Virus record (IMG/VR): IMGVR_UViG_3300022935_002487
Coordinates: 1-21,930 of that record
Direction: 5' to 3' (one strand)
Length of the DNA: 21,930 nucleotides
Source: a virus
Part shown: positions 2,675 through 8,813 of the stretch, one piece after another
Layout of the letters: each line of letters opens with the position of its first letter
How positions within the stretch are numbered: the first letter of the stretch is position 1
Translations under genes and position numbers: made by a program
Notes under the pieces: model-generated
Database searches by the model: none
The model's input: only the letters and a program-made list of their open reading frames with translations
What the model was told of the DNA's origin: nothing

Positions 2675-4042
2675 ATGAGTTTCCGACAAATGATACCCGA
2701 TATAGAAGAAATATCAGCATTATTAGTATTATCCCACGCTTCTAGTGGCAAAAGTATAGCGATCACTAGAAATAATCAGCATTTTTCTAACTTATCTGCG
2801 AAGTCTACTCTAAATGAGTGGACTCCACGACACAAATTAGTCCAAACAGCTCTCCTAGACGTAGTGGGTAGTGGTGACGGTGGGAAACTCGGTGCGTTTA
2901 TCACCATTTCCCTTATACGGTCTTTAGCAAAGCATAAACATGGGGGACACCCCGACTTAACAAAAGAAGTCTTATCTCATTTAGACCAAGTAGTAGACCT
3001 CATTTCTAGTAGAGCTGAGCAATCCGAAAAGCACCACTTAGTTTCTGTGGGCGAAGGTTTAGAATTTGCAGACCAACTCGCAGACGCTGTGTTTCTAGGA
3101 GGTGCTGAAACACACATTTCCTTAGAGCGTTATGAGGGTACAGGCTGTGAAGTAGTTGAGTCGGAAAGTTTACTCACCAAAGCCCGACCTCTACATATTT
3201 CTGAACAAGTTTCTTTGAAAGGGGCGATGGTAGCACTCTTACCTATTCGGGCTTCTAGCTTTAATGATGTAGCACAACCACTTGAACTCATGGGTACATT
3301 TCCTAATCGACCACTCGTGGTTATCGCACCTATGATGAGAGGTGAAGCCCTAGCGACAATTAAGAGAAATAGAGATGAGGGGATTGTAGAAGCCTATGGT
3401 ATCGAAGCTCCTTTAGTCACTTGGGGGAAAGGTTGGCTTGAAGATATAGGTGCTTTCACAGGGGGTACTTTATATGACCCTCTTTTCTACTCAGAGTTTG
3501 AGCCACATATGTTTGGGTCAGCTAGAGAGATCACCCTCAAAAATAATGAGATGATTATCGACCCTTATGAAGACCATGCCGAAGTGACTGCTGAACGCAT
3601 CTCACAACTCTTACATGAAGCTAACAACTCGCCTCACTCACACACCCAAGACCTATGGAGAAAAAGAGCCGCTTCGTTAGGTGGAACTCTCATCAGAGTT
3701 AAAGTTGGAGGTACGACAGAAGCTGAAGCCCGACTCCATAGAAACAAAGCTGAAAAAGCCATGCTTTCTATGGGTATGATGTTGAGGAGTGGTCATGTGA
3801 AAGGGGCTATCCCTACCCTCTCAGAAATACAAGGCATACACCCGATTATAGATAGAGCGTTAGTAGCTCCTCTTAGGGTCGTTGCGATTAACAAGAATCT
3901 TAACACACTCGATCAAGCAAAAAGCTGTTCCCCATTACTCTATGAACCATTCCCTCTCGAAAGGCTCATTTCTCTAGTAAGGTCAAGCTTCTCAGTCGCT
4001 ACGATGATCTGTAGTGTAGCAAGGATAATTAATAAGAAATGA
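2675..4042 (+). CDS. Divergent GroEL-type (group I) chaperonin, short form
   Basis: The 455-residue protein can be aligned by eye with E. coli GroEL over nearly its whole length. GSGDGGKLGAFITISLI (65-81) matches AAGDGTTTATVLAQAI around GroEL D87. The apical stretch RPLVVIAPMMRGEALATI (212-229) matches KPLLIIAEDVEGEALATL. DIGAFTGGT (257-265) matches DIATLTGGT. LGGTLIRVKVGGTTEAE (335-351) matches LAGGVAVIKVGAATEVE. The C-terminal SVATMICSVARII matches SVAGLMITTECMV. GroEL is about 548 residues, so this form is some 90 shorter and lacks the Gly-Met tail. D68 keeps the position of GroEL D87. The region of D52 reads TRNN instead of TKDG, and the residue aligned with D398 is Lys361, so the ATPase may be altered or lost. 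The ribosome site is GAGG, 6 nt away. Phage chaperonins are known in giant phages such as EL and OBP. The likely role is folding of phage proteins in the host cytoplasm. Confidence 0.88.
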   Translation: MSFRQMIPDIEEISALLVLSHASSGKSIAITRNNQHFSNLSAKSTLNEWTPRHKLVQTALLDVVGSGDGGKLGAFITISLIRSLAKHKHGGHPDLTKEVLSHLDQVVDLISSRAEQSEKHHLVSVGEGLEFADQLADAVFLGGAETHISLERYEGTGCEVVESESLLTKARPLHISEQVSLKGAMVALLPIRASSFNDVAQPLELMGTFPNRPLVVIAPMMRGEALATIKRNRDEGIVEAYGIEAPLVTWGKGWLEDIGAFTGGTLYDPLFYSEFEPHMFGSAREITLKNNEMIIDPYEDHAEVTAERISQLLHEANNSPHSHTQDLWRKRAASLGGTLIRVKVGGTTEAEARLHRNKAEKAMLSMGMMLRSGHVKGAIPTLSEIQGIHPIIDRALVAPLRVVAINKNLNTLDQAKSCSPLLYEPFPLERLISLVRSSFSVATMICSVARIINKK

Positions 4043-4449
4043 GCAAGAGGCAAATTCAATATGAGGTAATACCTCGACCTAGAAAACTTTCGTTTTACGA
4101 ATGGGCGTTTCTTCAGGGAGAAACGGCTAAAGACGCTTTCCTGAAAGGTAAAGAAACGCACCCTTTTCTTAGAGATGCGAAGAGGTATCACATAGCGATT
4201 TCTAACCGAGATAAAAACAGGACAGAAGAAGAAGCGATAGAGATCATGCAAAAGATTAAGGTGGTTGACCTACCTAAGAGCTATGTCTCTATAATCGTCT
4301 TAGGTCCGAACAAGTTCTTATTCTTCACTACGTTCGTAAACCCTTATAGAGCTATACTCCATGAAGTTATTTCTGAGTATCAAAAACTCAACGAAATCCC
4401 TGCACCTCTACTTGAGAGAGCAATCAGTCTCTTGCAAGGTGGTCTGTGA
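4039..4449 (+). CDS. Hypothetical protein coupled to the chaperonin gene
   Basis: The 136-residue protein has no family I recognise. It starts in an ATGA overlap with the chaperonin stop and has almost no ribosome site of its own, so it is probably translated by coupling. The sequence looks mixed alpha/beta. It has a basic N-terminus (MSKRQIQYEVIPRPRKLS), a central hydrophobic strand pair (YVSIIVLGPNKFLFFTTFVN, 82-101) and a C-terminal helix pair (EVISEYQKLNEI, PLLERAISLLQ). It carries no signal peptide, Cys pair or nucleotide-binding loop. Coupling suggests a product needed in proportion to the chaperonin. It does not look like GroES, which is smaller and all-beta with a mobile loop. It may equally belong with the methyltransferase genes that follow. 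Confidence 0.7.
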   Translation: MSKRQIQYEVIPRPRKLSFYEWAFLQGETAKDAFLKGKETHPFLRDAKRYHIAISNRDKNRTEEEAIEIMQKIKVVDLPKSYVSIIVLGPNKFLFFTTFVNPYRAILHEVISEYQKLNEIPAPLLERAISLLQGGL

Positions 4450-5027
4450 TGATAGAAATAAAAATAGGTGACTGTGCCGAGCGTCTTAAAGACTTAGAGG
4501 ATAACTCAGTTGACTCTATCATTTCTGACCCACCTTACGGACTGAAGTTTATGTCCAAAGGTTGGGACGATATAGGTGAGGGTAGTCAACAAAGAGAGTG
4601 GCACAGGAAATGGTTAGCCGAAGCTCACAGAGTCTTAAAACCTAACGGAGTGATTAAAGCGTTCTCAGGGTCTAGGACATACCACCACCTGATCGCCATG
4701 ATGGAAGAAATAGGCTTCTCAGACTTGAGGGTAGAAGCATGGACTTATGGTTCGGGTTTCCCTAAGTCGTTGAACGTAAGTAAAGCGATAGACAAGAGTT
4801 TAGGTGCTGAAAGAATAGTCGTAGGTACTCAAAAAGTGACAGGCACAGCTCGTAAGATTAAAGGCACAAATGCTCATGGAGGGAAGATGGCAGGAGTTGA
4901 CCAAGAATACGAAGAAACAAGTTTGGAAATAACAGTCTCATCAAGCAAAGAGGGTAAGCAATGGGAAGGTTGGGGTACGGCTCTGAAGCCGAGCTGGGAG
5001 CCTATCTGTATTGGAGTTAAGAAATGA
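4449..5027 (+). CDS. DNA methyltransferase catalytic subunit A (DPPY half, no SAM motif)
   Basis: The 192-residue protein is the N-terminal half of a beta-class N4/N6 amino-methyltransferase. It opens MIEIKIGDC and has the catalytic motif SDPPYGL at residues 26-32. It then shows the RVLKPNG strand-turn (61-67), SGSRT, and GSGFPKS...SKAIDK, and ends in GWGTALKPSWEPICIGVKK. In ordinary single-chain enzymes this block is followed by a target region and a C-terminal SAM-binding motif FxGxG. Here the protein stops after the block, and no FxGxG exists in it. I start it at ATG 4449, in a TGATG overlap with the previous stop, because the product then begins exactly like its copy at 5024. AAGG upstream serves as ribosome site. 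It presumably needs the protein at 6081-6776 to bind SAM. Confidence 0.88.
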   Translation: MIEIKIGDCAERLKDLEDNSVDSIISDPPYGLKFMSKGWDDIGEGSQQREWHRKWLAEAHRVLKPNGVIKAFSGSRTYHHLIAMMEEIGFSDLRVEAWTYGSGFPKSLNVSKAIDKSLGAERIVVGTQKVTGTARKIKGTNAHGGKMAGVDQEYEETSLEITVSSSKEGKQWEGWGTALKPSWEPICIGVKK

Positions 5028-5593
5028 TTGAAATAAAGATTGGAGATTGTACTGAAAGGTTAAAAGACCTAGAGGATAACTCAGTTGACTCTATTATTTC
5101 TGACCCTCCCTATGGACTGAAGTTTATGTCTAAAGGTTGGGACGATATAGGTGAGGGTAGTCAGCAAAGAGAGTGGCACAGGAAATGGTTAGCAGAGTCA
5201 TATCGAGTTCTTAAACCTAATGGTGTTCTCAAGGCTTTCTCAGGGTCTAGGACATTTCATCACCTGATAGCTATGATGGAAGAAATAGGTTTCTCAGACT
5301 TGAGGGTAGAAGCATGGACTTATAGTTCGGGTTTCCCTAAATCCCACAACCTCGCCAAGCAGTTTGAAAGGAAAGCAGGTGTAGAGGGCGAAATAGTCGG
5401 TTATTCTAAAGGAGTTTCCGTTGAGGACTCTCAAGGGTATGGTGGGATTGGTCGTGGTGCTGTGGGTATTGTCCAAAAAGCCGTAGACCTACCTGTCAGA
5501 GCTTTAGTTACAGAAGAAGCTAAAACATGGGAGGGTTGGGGTACGGCTCTTAAACCTTCCTGGGAGCCTATCTGTATAGGAGTTAAGAAATGA
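5024..5593 (+). CDS. DNA methyltransferase catalytic subunit B (tandem copy with different recognition stretch)
   Basis: The 189-residue protein is a tandem duplicate of the preceding gene. About 101 of the first 107 residues are identical, including SDPPYGL (26-32), and the last 21 residues are identical. Between them (about 108-168) the two are largely unlike. This copy has a gly-rich GYGGIGRGAVGIV stretch where the first has GTNAHGGKMAGV. The middle lies between catalytic and SAM halves, where beta-class enzymes carry target-recognition elements, so the two copies may read different DNA sites. No SAM-binding motif is present. It starts in an ATGA overlap, with GGAG 7 nt upstream encoded in the last codons of copy A. 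The same sequence recurs at its own end, so the duplication carried the junction with it. Confidence 0.88.
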   Translation: MIEIKIGDCTERLKDLEDNSVDSIISDPPYGLKFMSKGWDDIGEGSQQREWHRKWLAESYRVLKPNGVLKAFSGSRTFHHLIAMMEEIGFSDLRVEAWTYSSGFPKSHNLAKQFERKAGVEGEIVGYSKGVSVEDSQGYGGIGRGAVGIVQKAVDLPVRALVTEEAKTWEGWGTALKPSWEPICIGVKK

Positions 5594-6081
5594 TTATTAC
5601 ATTACTGAGAAAACCCCTAGAGGGAAGCGTAGCCGAAAATACCCTTAAACATGGGTGTGGAGCGATCAACATAGACGCTACTAGGGTGGGTACAGAAGCT
5701 CGCTCTTATAAGGGAGCGGGTAAGACGGACAAGGTTTACTCTGAGAGTCGAGCAGGTATGTCTGACGGTAGAGGGAAAGAAATGGAGTTTAACGTAGAGG
5801 GTAGGTGGCCTGCTAACTTTATTCTTACTCACCTTGAGGGCTGTACTTCTCAAGATGTGGATTGGGCTTGTGTAGAGGGTTGTCCTGTCACCGAGCTAAA
5901 TCAGCAAAGTGGTCATCTTAAAAGCACGACAAGAAATCCCACAGGAAATCCGATATATCCTACCTCAAATACATCAGTCACATGGAACGCAAACAATGTG
6001 ATGGACACGACACAACGAGGGTTCAATGATGAGGGAGGAGCTTCTAGGTTCTTCAAGCAGTTTAAGAAAGGAAATAACTAA
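5590..6081 (+). CDS. DNA methyltransferase middle segment as a separate protein
   Basis: The 163-residue protein begins MIITLLRKPLEGSVAENTLK and continues HGCGAINIDATRVGTE, then GRWPANFILTHLEGC and GGASRFFKQF. In single-chain phage and bacterial beta-class methyltransferases exactly these blocks follow the GWGTALKP...EPI element, in the order RKPL-x-G-(S/T)-VAEN, H-G-x-G-x-INID, GRWPAN, ASRFF. So this is the central part of such an enzyme, cut off at both ends. Five cysteines (GCTSQDVDWACVEGC at 84-98 contributes three) may bind zinc. It lacks both DPPY and FxGxG, so alone it should not catalyse methyl transfer. It starts in an ATGA overlap with copy B, with AGGAG upstream, and its TAA overlaps the next ATG by one base. 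It probably bridges catalytic and SAM-binding subunits. Confidence 0.82.
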   Translation: MIITLLRKPLEGSVAENTLKHGCGAINIDATRVGTEARSYKGAGKTDKVYSESRAGMSDGRGKEMEFNVEGRWPANFILTHLEGCTSQDVDWACVEGCPVTELNQQSGHLKSTTRNPTGNPIYPTSNTSVTWNANNVMDTTQRGFNDEGGASRFFKQFKKGNN

Positions 6082-6776
6082 TGGAAGAAATGATCGAATA
6101 CTTCAAAACAATGATTACACCACCCGTAGAAGACGCTTGTGTCATCGTAGGGAAACCCTCAGAAATAGATTACGAAAAGTACCGTACCATCGAGGGTGCA
6201 AGTATAGTCCCCCTCTACGATCCTGTCGCTCATGGGATTATTCTGTTAGATGAGCCAACAGAAGAAGAAGCTCAAAAACTCATGGCTATTCTAAAACCTG
6301 GCGGTCATATCGTACTTATCCCCAAAGACATAGGGTACAAAGGTGTGATCGCTCTTGAAGATCAAGGTTTTGAAGTGAGAGACGCTATCTTTGTAGGAGA
6401 AAACTCTGATGATTTCTATTACACATCTAAAGCGAGTCGATCTGAGAGAGAAGCAGGCTTGAGGTCTGAAGATGATAGCCGAGCTAATGTTCACCCAACT
6501 GTTAAGCCTATCGACATTATGGAGTGGTGTGCTAGAGACATAGCCCCTAACTCTAAAGTCGTAGACCCATTTCTTGGGAGTGGAACTACGGGTATTGCTA
6601 TGAGCCGTCTAGGACATGATTTTGTAGGTATAGAGCTGAACCCCGAATATGCAAAGATATGTGAGGGTAGGATTAGGCATTGGATGCCTATTGGCTCAGA
6701 AATAGTATCAGAAGCTGAAGTCGGTAAAGCCGAAGCTCAAGAGGGAGACACTATTTCCATCTTCGACTTGTTTTGA
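6081..6776 (+). CDS. DNA methyltransferase SAM-binding subunit with degenerate catalytic half
   Basis: The 231-residue protein has the C-terminal half of a beta-class methyltransferase: YYTSKASRSEREAGL (113-127), HPTVKP (138-143) and the SAM-binding loop VVDPFLGSGTTG (160-171). GIELNPEYAKIC follows. Ahead of this, residues 15-105 look like a worn-down N-terminal methyltransferase half: LMAILKPGGHIVLIP and IALEDQGFEVRDAIF match the family, but LLDEPTEE stands where DPPY should be. It therefore binds SAM but lacks the catalytic tetrad, complementary to the proteins at 4449 and 5024. The C-terminus, after a Glu/Ala linker, is SIFDLF, which resembles the sliding-clamp-binding motif. It starts in a TAATG overlap and ends one base from a convergent gene at 6778, with no room for a separate terminator. 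Confidence 0.86.
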   Translation: MEEMIEYFKTMITPPVEDACVIVGKPSEIDYEKYRTIEGASIVPLYDPVAHGIILLDEPTEEEAQKLMAILKPGGHIVLIPKDIGYKGVIALEDQGFEVRDAIFVGENSDDFYYTSKASRSEREAGLRSEDDSRANVHPTVKPIDIMEWCARDIAPNSKVVDPFLGSGTTGIAMSRLGHDFVGIELNPEYAKICEGRIRHWMPIGSEIVSEAEVGKAEAQEGDTISIFDLF

Positions 6777-6777
6777 C

Positions 6778-7221
6778 TTAAAGTCCTGTCTTTGTTTTGA
6801 GTTCCCAAGGACCCCAATGTCCATGTGTTGAGATCATTTCTGAGAACTCAAGATGGTCGTAAACATGGGTGTTATTGAAGCGATCTATTTGACCTAGAGC
6901 GTAGTAGACTCGCTTGTCGATTTTGATGTTTCTACCATTAGAAAAGTCGAGTACCTCACCCCCGTCTTCACACCAACAATGTCCATAGGAAATGCCTTGC
7001 AGTTCCCCTTGACCCATGACCTCACCATGAACAAGTCTGAGGTTAGGATTTCGGTACGCATTATCCATGAAGTATTTCCCATTAGCTTCATAACAGTCGC
7101 CAAAGTCAGAGGCTAGTTTCTTCATTTCTGAAGGTCTTACTCGTACTTTCTTCTTGGGAAGCTCATCAAAGATTTCTAAGCCTTCCAGGTATCTGCTTGC
7201 TATTACTTCTGAGAGCTTCAT
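6778..7221 (-). CDS. Hypothetical protein, possible papain-fold Cys-His-Asp hydrolase
   Basis: The 147-residue protein has no certain family. It contains FGDCYEANGKYF (40-51), then LVHGEVMGQGEL, YGHCWCEDG (79-87), EVLDFSNGR (89-97) and VYYALG. The order is Cys at the start of a helix, His in a strand and Asp in the next strand. That is the papain-like arrangement, with C43, H81 and D92 as candidates. Similar small phage proteins of unknown role carry the LVHG...GHAW...D-x-SNG pattern, so a peptidase, deamidase or an inactive relative is possible. I start it at ATG 7221; a TTG two codons upstream is less likely. AAGGGA lies about 12 nt upstream. It follows the membrane-protein gene 13 bases downstream, in the same direction. 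Confidence 0.68.
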   Translation of the reverse strand: MKLSEVIASRYLEGLEIFDELPKKKVRVRPSEMKKLASDFGDCYEANGKYFMDNAYRNPNLRLVHGEVMGQGELQGISYGHCWCEDGGEVLDFSNGRNIKIDKRVYYALGQIDRFNNTHVYDHLEFSEMISTHGHWGPWELKTKTGL

Positions 7222-7234
7222 TTCCAATTATCCC

Positions 7235-8095
7235 TTAGTAAAGAGGTAGCAAAAGCATATTCGCTCTGCGATCACCAAAGCCAAACCATGATTTGAGCTT
7301 ACTCACACCTGTATTGAAAGTGTCAGCAATCCCTCTGCCAATTCCTTTAAGCCCTGACCAAAGCAGACTTGGAAGATCACCGAGCTTAACTCCTGCCCTC
7401 ATAAGAAATGGAAGCAAGTGCTTGTAGAAGAAATTGGTAAGAGCAGTCGCACTCCAACCTAAGAGTTTGATTGCAAGGTATGCGGCGATCACAATCCCAA
7501 GAACTTTTGCTCCTGCTACACTAACTAAAGCTATCAGAGTTTTACCACCAAAAGCGGCACTCCAAAGACCAAGACCACCACCGATAAGAGCGTACAAGAA
7601 AAACTGTGCAAGGTTGTGCTTATCTATGTATTTTCTTGCTTCTTCTAAGTCTGCTTGCCCTTGACTCCACCATTCATAGAAGCCTAGAGGGTCACGATCA
7701 TCATAGTTATCAACCATTTCCTGAATCAAGTCCATCTTGCTCTTAAAAGAACGCTCTCTGTCCACTTTTTCTTTCATTTCTCTGATGAGAGGGTTGTTCT
7801 TGTCGATGAGTTGGTCCATATTATTGTAAAGGTAGAGAATGTCTTCAGGCGATCTGATACCTAAACTCTTAATAACTTTAGAGAAGTTTTTCGGTATGAG
7901 GTCTTCGGTGTTCTCAAGCCCCTGAGCGAAGCCCTCAAAAGCTGTGTTGATTGTTTCCTGTTCAACAGCCTTAGCGTTATTGCTTGTTTTAATGTAAGCA
8001 ATCCGACCAATTTGTTTGGCAAGACGATCTGTGCTCGCTCTCTTGGAAATGCGAGCTTCAAGGTTTCTGATTTCAAGGTGTGATAGTTTTCTCAT
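7235..8095 (-). CDS. Hypothetical two-TM membrane protein with shared N-terminal peptide
   Basis: The 286-residue protein has a charged helical N-terminal two-thirds. Two hydrophobic segments follow at about 163-182 (NLAQFFLYALIGGGLGLW) and 186-214 (LIALVSVAGAKVLGIVIAAY), then an amphipathic tail ending in MLLLPLY. It is probably inserted in a membrane with its long N-terminal part on one side; orientation cannot be told. There is no signal peptide. The first 18 residues (MRKLSHLEIRNLEARISK) match, position by position, those of the otherwise unrelated protein at 21394-21831. The gene has a strong ribosome site (AAAGGAGA, 8 nt from ATG). It could be an internal virion or DNA-injection protein, but nothing in the sequence proves this. 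Confidence 0.72.
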   Translation of the reverse strand: MRKLSHLEIRNLEARISKRASTDRLAKQIGRIAYIKTSNNAKAVEQETINTAFEGFAQGLENTEDLIPKNFSKVIKSLGIRSPEDILYLYNNMDQLIDKNNPLIREMKEKVDRERSFKSKMDLIQEMVDNYDDRDPLGFYEWWSQGQADLEEARKYIDKHNLAQFFLYALIGGGLGLWSAAFGGKTLIALVSVAGAKVLGIVIAAYLAIKLLGWSATALTNFFYKHLLPFLMRAGVKLGDLPSLLWSGLKGIGRGIADTFNTGVSKLKSWFGFGDRRANMLLLPLY

Positions 8096-8159: not shown

Positions 8160-8813
8160 ATGATACTAGGTTTAGACCCCTCACTCAGAAACTTTGGGTG
8201 GGTTCTCATGGAAGATGACGGTCATTTCTTAGACAAAGGAATGATGTCTACGAAAGCCGACATGATGTTCGTCAATCGCTACATATTTCTTCGAGAGGGC
8301 TTGAGGGAAATAGTACAAACAATCAGATCAAACTACCCTGATAAGAGCCTAAGAGTTGGGATAGAGAGCCCCATCTTTAACGACCTTTATTCAGAGGGTA
8401 TGTACGGCTTATTTCTATATTCTAACGAAGCTCTGATGCTTGAGAAATGTGATACTGTTTACCTCACACCGAACCAAGTGAAAGCTCATGCGTCTTTATT
8501 TCTTAATCGCCCGAAAGGTTGGAAGATGCAGAAAGGCGACATGGTAGACGCTGTAAAGCAAGCGACAGAAGGGCAAGGTGCGAAGCGTTGGAATCACCAC
8601 CAAGCAGACGCTTATTGGGTTGGTCGTACAGCAGGTCGGTTTTGGCAACTCGTTGAGGGGGAACTAGAAATAAGTGACCTCTCAGAGTTGGAAAAAAAGC
8701 ACTTCACCGACTACGAAAAATATGTGCGTGGAAAGAAAGCAGGCAAGGTAAAGCGTAAGGGTATAACCCATAAAGAGAATGACAGATACTTTAGGTGGTC
8801 AGAAGAAAATTAA
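8160..8813 (+). CDS. RuvC-like Holliday junction resolvase (RNase H fold)
   Basis: The 217-residue protein starts MILGLDPSLRNFGW, the first strand of RuvC-family nucleases, with catalytic D6. The second acid is E69 in VGIESPIF. The last cluster is WNHHQADAYWVG, with H146/H147 and D150. The KGDMVDAVKQAT segment (125-136) before it is also usual in this family. All expected metal-binding acids are present, so it should cut four-way junctions symmetrically in DNA recombination or before packaging. The C-terminus (about 175-217) is a Lys/Arg-rich tail beyond the core fold, probably for DNA contact. The ribosome site GGAGG is excellent. It heads the plus-strand recombination cluster, immediately ahead of the RecA-like gene. 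Confidence 0.88.
   Translation: MILGLDPSLRNFGWVLMEDDGHFLDKGMMSTKADMMFVNRYIFLREGLREIVQTIRSNYPDKSLRVGIESPIFNDLYSEGMYGLFLYSNEALMLEKCDTVYLTPNQVKAHASLFLNRPKGWKMQKGDMVDAVKQATEGQGAKRWNHHQADAYWVGRTAGRFWQLVEGELEISDLSELEKKHFTDYEKYVRGKKAGKVKRKGITHKENDRYFRWSEEN

Follow-up and report, generated by a model that had tools for sequence, protein, structure and literature searches.

Within a virus record of 21,930 bases (IMGVR_UViG_3300022935_002487), the whole of which is referred to here as the window, four overlapping genes called A, B, G3 and G4 carry between them the sequence blocks of a single beta-class DNA methyltransferase. The reading that we favour, with a probability of roughly 0.7, is that they encode a modular and possibly combinatorial enzyme that has been cut through its catalytic fold, in which variants of A and G3 would serve around one G4. 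The evidence for this reading includes the partition of the catalytic and S-adenosylmethionine (SAM) binding motifs between separate genes, the recurrence of the split in other viruses with multiple copies of A and G3, and the predicted fold of a natural fusion from a relative. The four open reading frames (ORFs) were all confirmed in the window and are as follows.

4449-5027, plus strand: gene A, DPPY (motif IV) half of a beta-class methyltransferase, 192 amino acids
4764-4943, plus strand: variable segment VA of A, residues 106-165, 28% amino-acid identity to B, a probable part of the target-recognition region
5024-5593, plus strand: gene B, second DPPY half, with a core as in A and another variable segment, 189 amino acids
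5590-6081, plus strand: gene G3, bridge and probable target-recognition subunit with neither DPPY nor SAM loop, 163 amino acids
about 5686-5799, 5827-5904 and 5911-6042, plus strand: variable segments V1, V2 and V3 of G3, which flank a conserved GRWPANFIL (from 5800)
6081-6776, plus strand: gene G4, single SAM-binding subunit, 231 amino acids
6081-6398, plus strand: N-terminal domain of G4, residues 1-106, degenerate methyltransferase-like, with xEPT at the DPPY position and no SAM loop

Division of one methyltransferase over four genes

The Pfam family N6_N4_Mtase, with a profile of 221 positions, is matched at its front by A (positions 1-90, E 8e-14) and B (positions 1-99, E 6e-14) and at its back by G4 (positions 141-219, E 8e-17). 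G3 has no Pfam match, and is instead linked to the enzyme by phrog_3008, a DNA methyltransferase, over residues 6-113 (E 2e-8) and by tblastn, in which phage DNA methylases are matched over residues 3-159. The PHROG matches of A are to phrog_67 and phrog_6025, DNA methyltransferase. When the single-chain phage enzymes of phrog_67, such as Mycobacterium phage OrionPax gp98 and that of Pontimonas phage phiPsal1, are taken as a reference, A, then G3, then the C-terminal part of G4 match along one polypeptide, and the common order of blocks is the DPPY half, GWGTALKP, RKPL..NID..GRWPAN, HPTVKP and DPFxGSGT. The original prediction, that the four proteins read in order give the blocks of one beta-class enzyme, is borne out by these matches.

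Among the four genes of the window DPPY is confined to A (codons 4527-4538) and B (codons 5102-5113), while HPTVKP (6492-6509) and DPFLGSGTTG (FLGSGTTG 6570-6593) are confined to G4. Each piece had been described as lacking something essential; this partition stands for DPPY and for the SAM loop, whereas G4 turns out to be more than a SAM half, since it has an extra domain of about 106 residues. With respect to the beta class, A and B carry a catalytic motif IV of the form (D/N/S)PP(Y/F/W), and motif X followed by motif I (FxGxG) comes after motif IV and the recognition region. Motifs IV and I, which lie on one polypeptide in the class, are here on separate genes, so that membership belongs to the assembled set and to no single window gene; one full natural fusion, in a relative (L087), was seen.

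Both cuts duplicate a strand-like stretch instead of losing one. At the A/G3 cut the tail of A reads EPICIGVKK and the head of G3 IITLLRKPL, where the single-chain enzyme L127 has EPVVVARKPL. At the G3/G4 cut the tail of G3 is ASRFFKQF and G4 has FYYTSKASRSERE, the equivalent in the single-chain enzyme L143 being ASRFFYVAKASRSER. The junctions were claimed to be translationally coupled, and this can be read directly from the sequence: A/B and B/G3 are each joined by ATGA with a 4-nt overlap and G3/G4 by TAATG with a 1-nt overlap, with purine-rich ribosome sites (GGAG or AGGA-like) ahead of B, G3 and G4. A starts with ATG at 4449, with an in-frame GTG at 4446, and shares a TGATG with a 1-nt overlap with the gene before it.

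Recurrence of the split in other viruses

The split is found in 30 distinct viral records, including the window. In viral contigs the G4 and G3 queries each found 28 loci, and profile searches found 80 and 77, which in part coincide or are single-chain; 30 representatives were kept after duplicates and contig-edge fragments had been removed. The edge fragments left out are L004, L010, L014, L016, L017, L021 and L024-L027, and those close to a kept record are L005, L022, L038, L041, L042, L044, L048, L052, L054 and L089. L199 (no G4 N-terminal domain) and L191 (an 860-amino-acid ORF with a G3 match only) were also left out, and three close pairs, L183/L186, L177/L180 and L169/L189, are still among the 30. 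The contigs L004 and L005 are protein-identical to the window over the parts covered.

The 30 records hold 49 A-type, 59 G3-type and 30 G4-type modules, fused ones being counted per class and the interrupted A of L167 as two of the 49, together with one G3/A chimera (L011) that is in neither class. Every record has one G4, with 1-6 A-type and 1-7 G3-type modules. At least two A modules are present in 10 of the 30 records and at least two G3 modules in 15, one or the other being so in 18, and the remaining 12 have one of each. The largest sets are those of L090 (record G014, 125,741 bp), with one G4, six A and six G3, and of L131, with one G4, two A and seven G3. Searches across 20 whole records, two near-identical pairs included, found one G4-like gene in 19, with 1-6 A-type and 1-7 G3-type genes alongside; in the twentieth, that of L199, there is only a G4 match without the N-terminal region, and other G4 matches score at most 37.2 bits. 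The L199 record (G019, 115,647 bases) has three G3-type matches besides this SAM-half match, and nothing of the A type was matched in it.

The motifs are partitioned in the relatives too. DPPY occurs in 48 of the 49 A-type ORFs, the exception being the C-terminal piece of the interrupted A of L167, and in none of 58 G3 modules, the bridge fused inside L087 not being counted. The SAM loop is found by pattern in 27 of the 30 G4 genes; L167 and L029 have one changed residue, as seen by eye, and L186 is cut at the contig end. No A or G3 of the 30 records has it. Neighbouring modules form 104 pairs. Judged by ORF ends, 74 of them are close, with a start/stop overlap of 1 or 4 nt in 68, and the remaining 30 are further apart or overlap more; junction type was classed for the close pairs. 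A search for the same four-gene order elsewhere had been proposed, and the split does recur, although the order is not fixed: G3 lies ahead of A in many relatives and G4 comes first in two. In the natural fusions, A+G3+G4 in L087 and G3+G4 in L045, L088 and L029, the order is kept.

A few modules depart from the usual form. The A-type module at 7455-8004 of L167 is spread over two overlapping ORFs, of 108 and 83 amino acids, either a real break or a further split. Intein-like insertions, recognised by eye from their ends, are present at HP|TVKP of G4 (TCKP in L029) in L167 (8644-10560), L028 (3471-5306), L029 (2736-5294) and L131 (6468-8303, with only sub-threshold intein matches), all four starting CLHP and ending SHN or THN, and at YG|SGFPK of A in L171 (6238-8004) and L087 (4157-6067). 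They interrupt motifs that are expected to matter.

Variable segments and their exchange

To judge from their sequences, A and B are two alternative versions of the DPPY subunit. Most of the difference between them lies in a single segment, residues 106-165, where protein identity is 28%, as against 94% in residues 1-105. Typing of segments in 24 records, at a 45% identity threshold of our own choice, with an empty V3 treated as one type and some segment borders rough, gave 10 VA allele types among 32 A modules, and 14 V1, 9 V2 and 13 V3 types among 33 G3 modules, in 32 different triples; 7 G3 and 3 A modules that did not fit the pattern were left out. For instance, one V3 type is paired with four V1 types. 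We read this pattern as the movement of variable segments between copies by recombination, and the location of the segments of A and G3 between motifs IV and X suggests that they recognise DNA.

The cores of the A modules were compared with modules above 260 amino acids (L171, L167) left out. Same-type (GFPKS) copies within one record, of which there are four pairs, have cores that are 92-95% identical, and the 57 between-record pairs with a common variable type have a core mean of 87.5%. For all 13 within-record pairs together the core mean is just 84%, owing to the diverged core of a second A type (SGMP).

The original prediction pictured a shared core of SAM-binding and bridge proteins that pairs with catalytic subunit A or B. 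The alternation of A and B stands, whereas the constant part shrinks to G4 alone, since G3 is itself multi-copy and has more variable segments than A. It is plausible that two specificities could come from one enzyme, and for relatives the figure could be as high as 6 x 6.

Two further observations concern the modules themselves. At 2143-2655 of L011 a G3 module ends in the tail of an A module, a chimera that is a sign of recombination within the array. Short G3 modules of 103-107 amino acids, with little beyond V1, occur in L007 (4103-4426), L008 (1540-1857), L039 (6751-7071), L052 (5001-5321), L009 (2315-2626) and L011 (159-470).

Predicted fold of a natural fusion

Can the separate halves form one enzyme? 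L087 offers a natural fusion of A, G3 and G4 of 564 amino acids, for which AlphaFold2 (AF2) gave a model with a mean predicted local distance difference test score (pLDDT) of 73.3 and a predicted template modelling score (pTM) of 0.76. With low-confidence loops left out, VIA-align fits this model to M.BceJIV (9c3u_A) at Z 23.2 and 2.2 Å over 201 residues, spanning model residues 1-528, and to beta-class enzymes including CcrM, M.BceJIV, M.RsrI and their relatives at Z 22.5-23.6. The 201 aligned residues must include much of A, because the beta-class alignments of G4 alone reach only 64-106 residues among the 50 rows listed. The motif register of the alignment, A6, is correct in 14 of 14 A, 7 of 7 G3, 14 of 14 G4 and 10 of 10 single-chain rows, although one A row fails a single check of the three. 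A and the SAM half of G4 are thus predicted to lie in one canonical beta-class fold. It had been proposed that DPPY and the SAM loop meet in one site in a complex of the four chains; the two halves do come together in one fold, in a prediction made on the covalent fusion of a relative, which is close to the complex proposed.

The extra domain of G4

Sequence and model comparisons both point to the N-terminal domain of G4 as a degenerate methyltransferase-like unit. Over residues 58-104 the domain shows homology to single-chain enzymes in their catalytic half (hhalign against 100 enzymes, 98%, E 2e-13, 48 columns), DPPY is present in this domain in 0 of the 30 representatives, and in annotated phages residues 1-127 match 6 records, all inside residues 57-112. 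The AF2 model of window G4 alone has a pLDDT of 78.3 (five models, 56.5-78.3) and a pTM of 0.50, the pLDDT of the N-terminal domain being 59-94 by blocks of ten. VIA-align superposes the 106 residues of the domain on class I methyltransferases such as PrmA over 89-91 residues at 2.4-2.6 Å, with a Z of about 6.5 that is below the level of a safe match, and the C-terminal part on the SAM half of beta-class enzymes over 64-106 residues at Z of about 5-7. Foldseek of the G4 model against viral structures gave methyltransferase-like rows only among the 50 shown, with template modelling (TM) scores by query length of at most 0.34.

No row among the 50 listed by VIA-align for the G4 model aligns across both halves. 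The SAM half therefore appears to be left free in the model, which fits a site that is completed by A, and the idea that the N-terminal domain plugs the SAM half in the place of A was rejected on the same ground, the pTM of the model being 0.50. A role for the domain as a dead partner in a dimer is a guess.

Tandem or long methyltransferase blocks exist elsewhere, in L058 (LR756508, 240-3717), L057 (Escherichia phage BUCT618) and Mycobacterium phage Mantra gp64. In L058 an ORF of 332 amino acids, with catalytic-half-like and bridge matches and no SAM half, is flanked by two complete chains. A tandem methyltransferase could be the ancestor of the extra domain of G4.

Proposed mechanism and competing explanations

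How might such an enzyme work? G4, present in a single copy, would supply motifs X and I (HPTVKP and FLGSGTTG) and bind SAM. The target-recognition region would be shared between an A-type subunit, which would also bring the N-terminal GDC segment and the catalytic DPPY, and a G3-type subunit, such that the docking of one A and one G3 on the SAM half of G4 would rebuild an ordinary active site. The product is probably N6-methyladenine (m6A), as the DPPY motif suggests. Because A and G3 come in several versions with differing variable segments and G4 comes once, enzymes of different target specificity could be assembled on one G4, the likely use being multi-site self-methylation against host restriction. 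In its fullest form this would be a combinatorial kit, to which we give slightly less than an even chance: one G4, whose built-in dead domain may replace the second protomer of the usual dimer, would combine freely with one DPPY and one recognition subunit, each drawn from several, so that 6 + 6 + 1 genes could give up to 36 enzymes, with new ones arising via short-segment swaps. If true, this would amount to the division of labour of the Type I specificity subunit, achieved here by dividing a beta-class enzyme within its catalytic fold.

A number of points weigh against the modular reading. The five AF2 models of the L087 fusion spread over pLDDT 63.9-73.3, and Foldseek superposes the fusion poorly on the same chains (root-mean-square deviation 11-15 Å), with target-normalised TM scores of 0.52-0.69 in the top 15 rows against beta-class chains. 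Alignment A6 includes 10 single-chain enzymes, which favours contact between A and the SAM half, and a control alignment without them, A7, was misaligned in the A rows. The modelled chains are those of a relative and are covalently joined, the G4 part being 39% identical to that of the window. In hhalign the G4 N-terminal domain matches the A profile alone weakly (29.6%, and 0.2% in the whole-G4 comparison). Purifying selection on A, B and G4 is indicated by ratios of nonsynonymous to synonymous substitution (dN/dS) of 0.02-0.18 in the comparisons with relatives for which dS is computable, the values for G3 being 0.09 and 0.30, but several dS values are saturated and those ratios are rough. 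Finally, A and B could have the same specificity, and it is from sequence and models that we infer activity, the complex and the free mixing of A and G3.

An unlikely alternative is that the enzyme is split but not combinatorial, with A/B, G3 and G4 in one obligate complex, A being active, for example, and B a dimer partner, and with the extra copies as duplications of the same specificity. In Type III Mod proteins, which are beta-class dimers, DNA binding falls mainly to one subunit and methylation to the other, according to PMC8259958. The 12 records with a single A and a single G3 would suit such a complex, yet elsewhere the copy numbers of A and G3 vary independently (1/3, 4/3, 2/4, 6/6, 2/7) and the differences sit in variable segments with many allele types, rather than protein-wide.

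It is considerably less probable that G4 acts as a regulator that binds SAM, or as a decoy against restriction, with A and G3 binding DNA without methylating it. The degeneracy of the G4 N-terminal domain would agree with this. Nevertheless DPPY, GDC, HPTVKP and the SAM loop are each kept, under apparent purifying selection, in the subunit expected to need them, and for the L087 fusion a canonical enzyme fold is predicted.

Hardly credible, despite real breaks in some relatives (the A of L167 in two ORFs, the G3/A chimera of L011) and a single-chain-type enzyme in two overlapping ORFs in Mycobacterium phage Cactus, is the decay, frameshift error or phase-variable wreckage of a single-chain methyltransferase: boundaries are alike in the 30 records, the close junctions are overwhelmingly clean start/stop overlaps, dN/dS is well below 1, L004 and L005 agree with the window, and the cut ends drop no strand-like stretch. 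On the recurrence, the clean overlaps and the dN/dS of A, B and G4, sequencing error and pseudogenes were rejected, and the earlier contention that this is not random frameshifting is upheld. Fusion by frameshifting as the main product was rejected as well, since successive A genes occur in several arrays and there are few natural fusions.

Relation to known systems

The single-chain phage enzymes have the same block order as the window set, yet they are one polypeptide, with presumably one specificity, and have neither a degenerate extra domain nor, in the regions examined, spare catalytic or recognition modules alongside. CcrM, M.BceJIV and M.RsrI, the solved beta-class enzymes, resemble A plus the SAM half of G4 in fold, as modelled in L087, and also match by sequence profile, but have motifs IV and I on one polypeptide where the window has them on separate ones.

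Type I systems combine a common methylating part with exchangeable specificity parts, HsdM holding the SAM and catalytic motifs together; the window set would work alike, with the difference that here the catalytic motif sits on the exchangeable subunit. The multispecific 5-methylcytosine methyltransferases of Bacillus phages similarly have one core for several target-recognition segments, but all in one chain and with cytosine-5 chemistry. In METTL3-METTL14 an active catalytic chain has a catalytically dead methyltransferase-like partner, SAM binding and catalysis both residing on METTL3, whereas here they are on two chains; the fold match of these chains to the L087 model, at Z of about 11-12, is below that of the beta class. 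A Pfam scan of the four window genes at E up to 1 listed N6_N4_Mtase and other methyltransferase families and no HsdM-type N6_Mtase, HsdS Methylase_S, MT-A70 or C5-methyltransferase family, and membership of the Type I, C5 (M.AquI type) and MT-A70 groups was rejected for this reason. PADLOC returned generic methyltransferase models and one mads_2 model.

A natural split is also found in M.AquI and M.EcoHK31I, C5-cytosine methyltransferases on two polypeptides, of which M.AquI is cut within the variable region; in the accessible text of PMC3404938 these are two fixed parts, with motifs I to VIII on the large subunit, and no arrays of alternatives such as those of the window type are described.

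The architecture has no match in the annotated phages, bacterial loci and literature examined. In 50,697 annotated phage records, a set that may lack those closest to the window, blastn of 4300-7000 gave no match, and no such split was seen among 11 regions examined of hundreds of matching records. Ten of the 11 have one chain, by annotation or by ORFs with profiles, and the other is that of Mycobacterium phage Cactus, in which a single-chain Kostyavirus-type methyltransferase lies in two overlapping ORFs (gp102/gp103, L318 1986-3205), perhaps by frameshift. The lengths of phrog_6025 (192) and phrog_3008 (244) fit separate halves. A scan of genome contigs with the G4 alignment (hidden Markov model census) found no separate G4- or G3-type gene in the best 80 of 242 relatives, which were mostly matched over the C-terminal part of G4, free A-type genes lying outside that listing. 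No title on a split beta-class phage methyltransferase is among those listed by literature searches, with preprints and most subscription papers outside the coverage.

If the modular reading is true, a single-chain family has been turned into a kit, with the catalytic residue on a swappable subunit and the cofactor site on a constant one, and one phage could mark its own DNA in several ways. Large phages would thereby shield their DNA from many restriction systems with few genes. Since a natural exchange of alleles in A or G3 could show up as a changed methylation motif, the arrays would also let the coding of target recognition in beta-class enzymes be tested directly, and they would provide a ready-made split methyltransferase for programmable methylation.

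Genomic surroundings

The genes on either side of the array in the window are listed below.

2675-4042: GroEL-like gene, 455 amino acids, phrog_5725 (E 2e-18), beside the array
4039-4449, plus strand: upstream coupled gene, 136 amino acids, TGATG overlap with A, probably outside the enzyme
6778-8095, minus strand: two genes downstream of G4
8160-8813: RuvC-like gene, on the far flank of the array, past the minus-strand genes

Counts of neighbours cover the sequence stretches around the arrays, many of which are short. A relative of the upstream coupled gene is near the array in just 3 of the 29 other representatives, and in the near-identical L005, so that it is not a constant partner. GroEL-like relatives (44-88% identity) are near the array in 15 of the 29 and a RuvC-like relative in 13, one or both being present in 20, and the genomic place of the array is common to part of the relatives.

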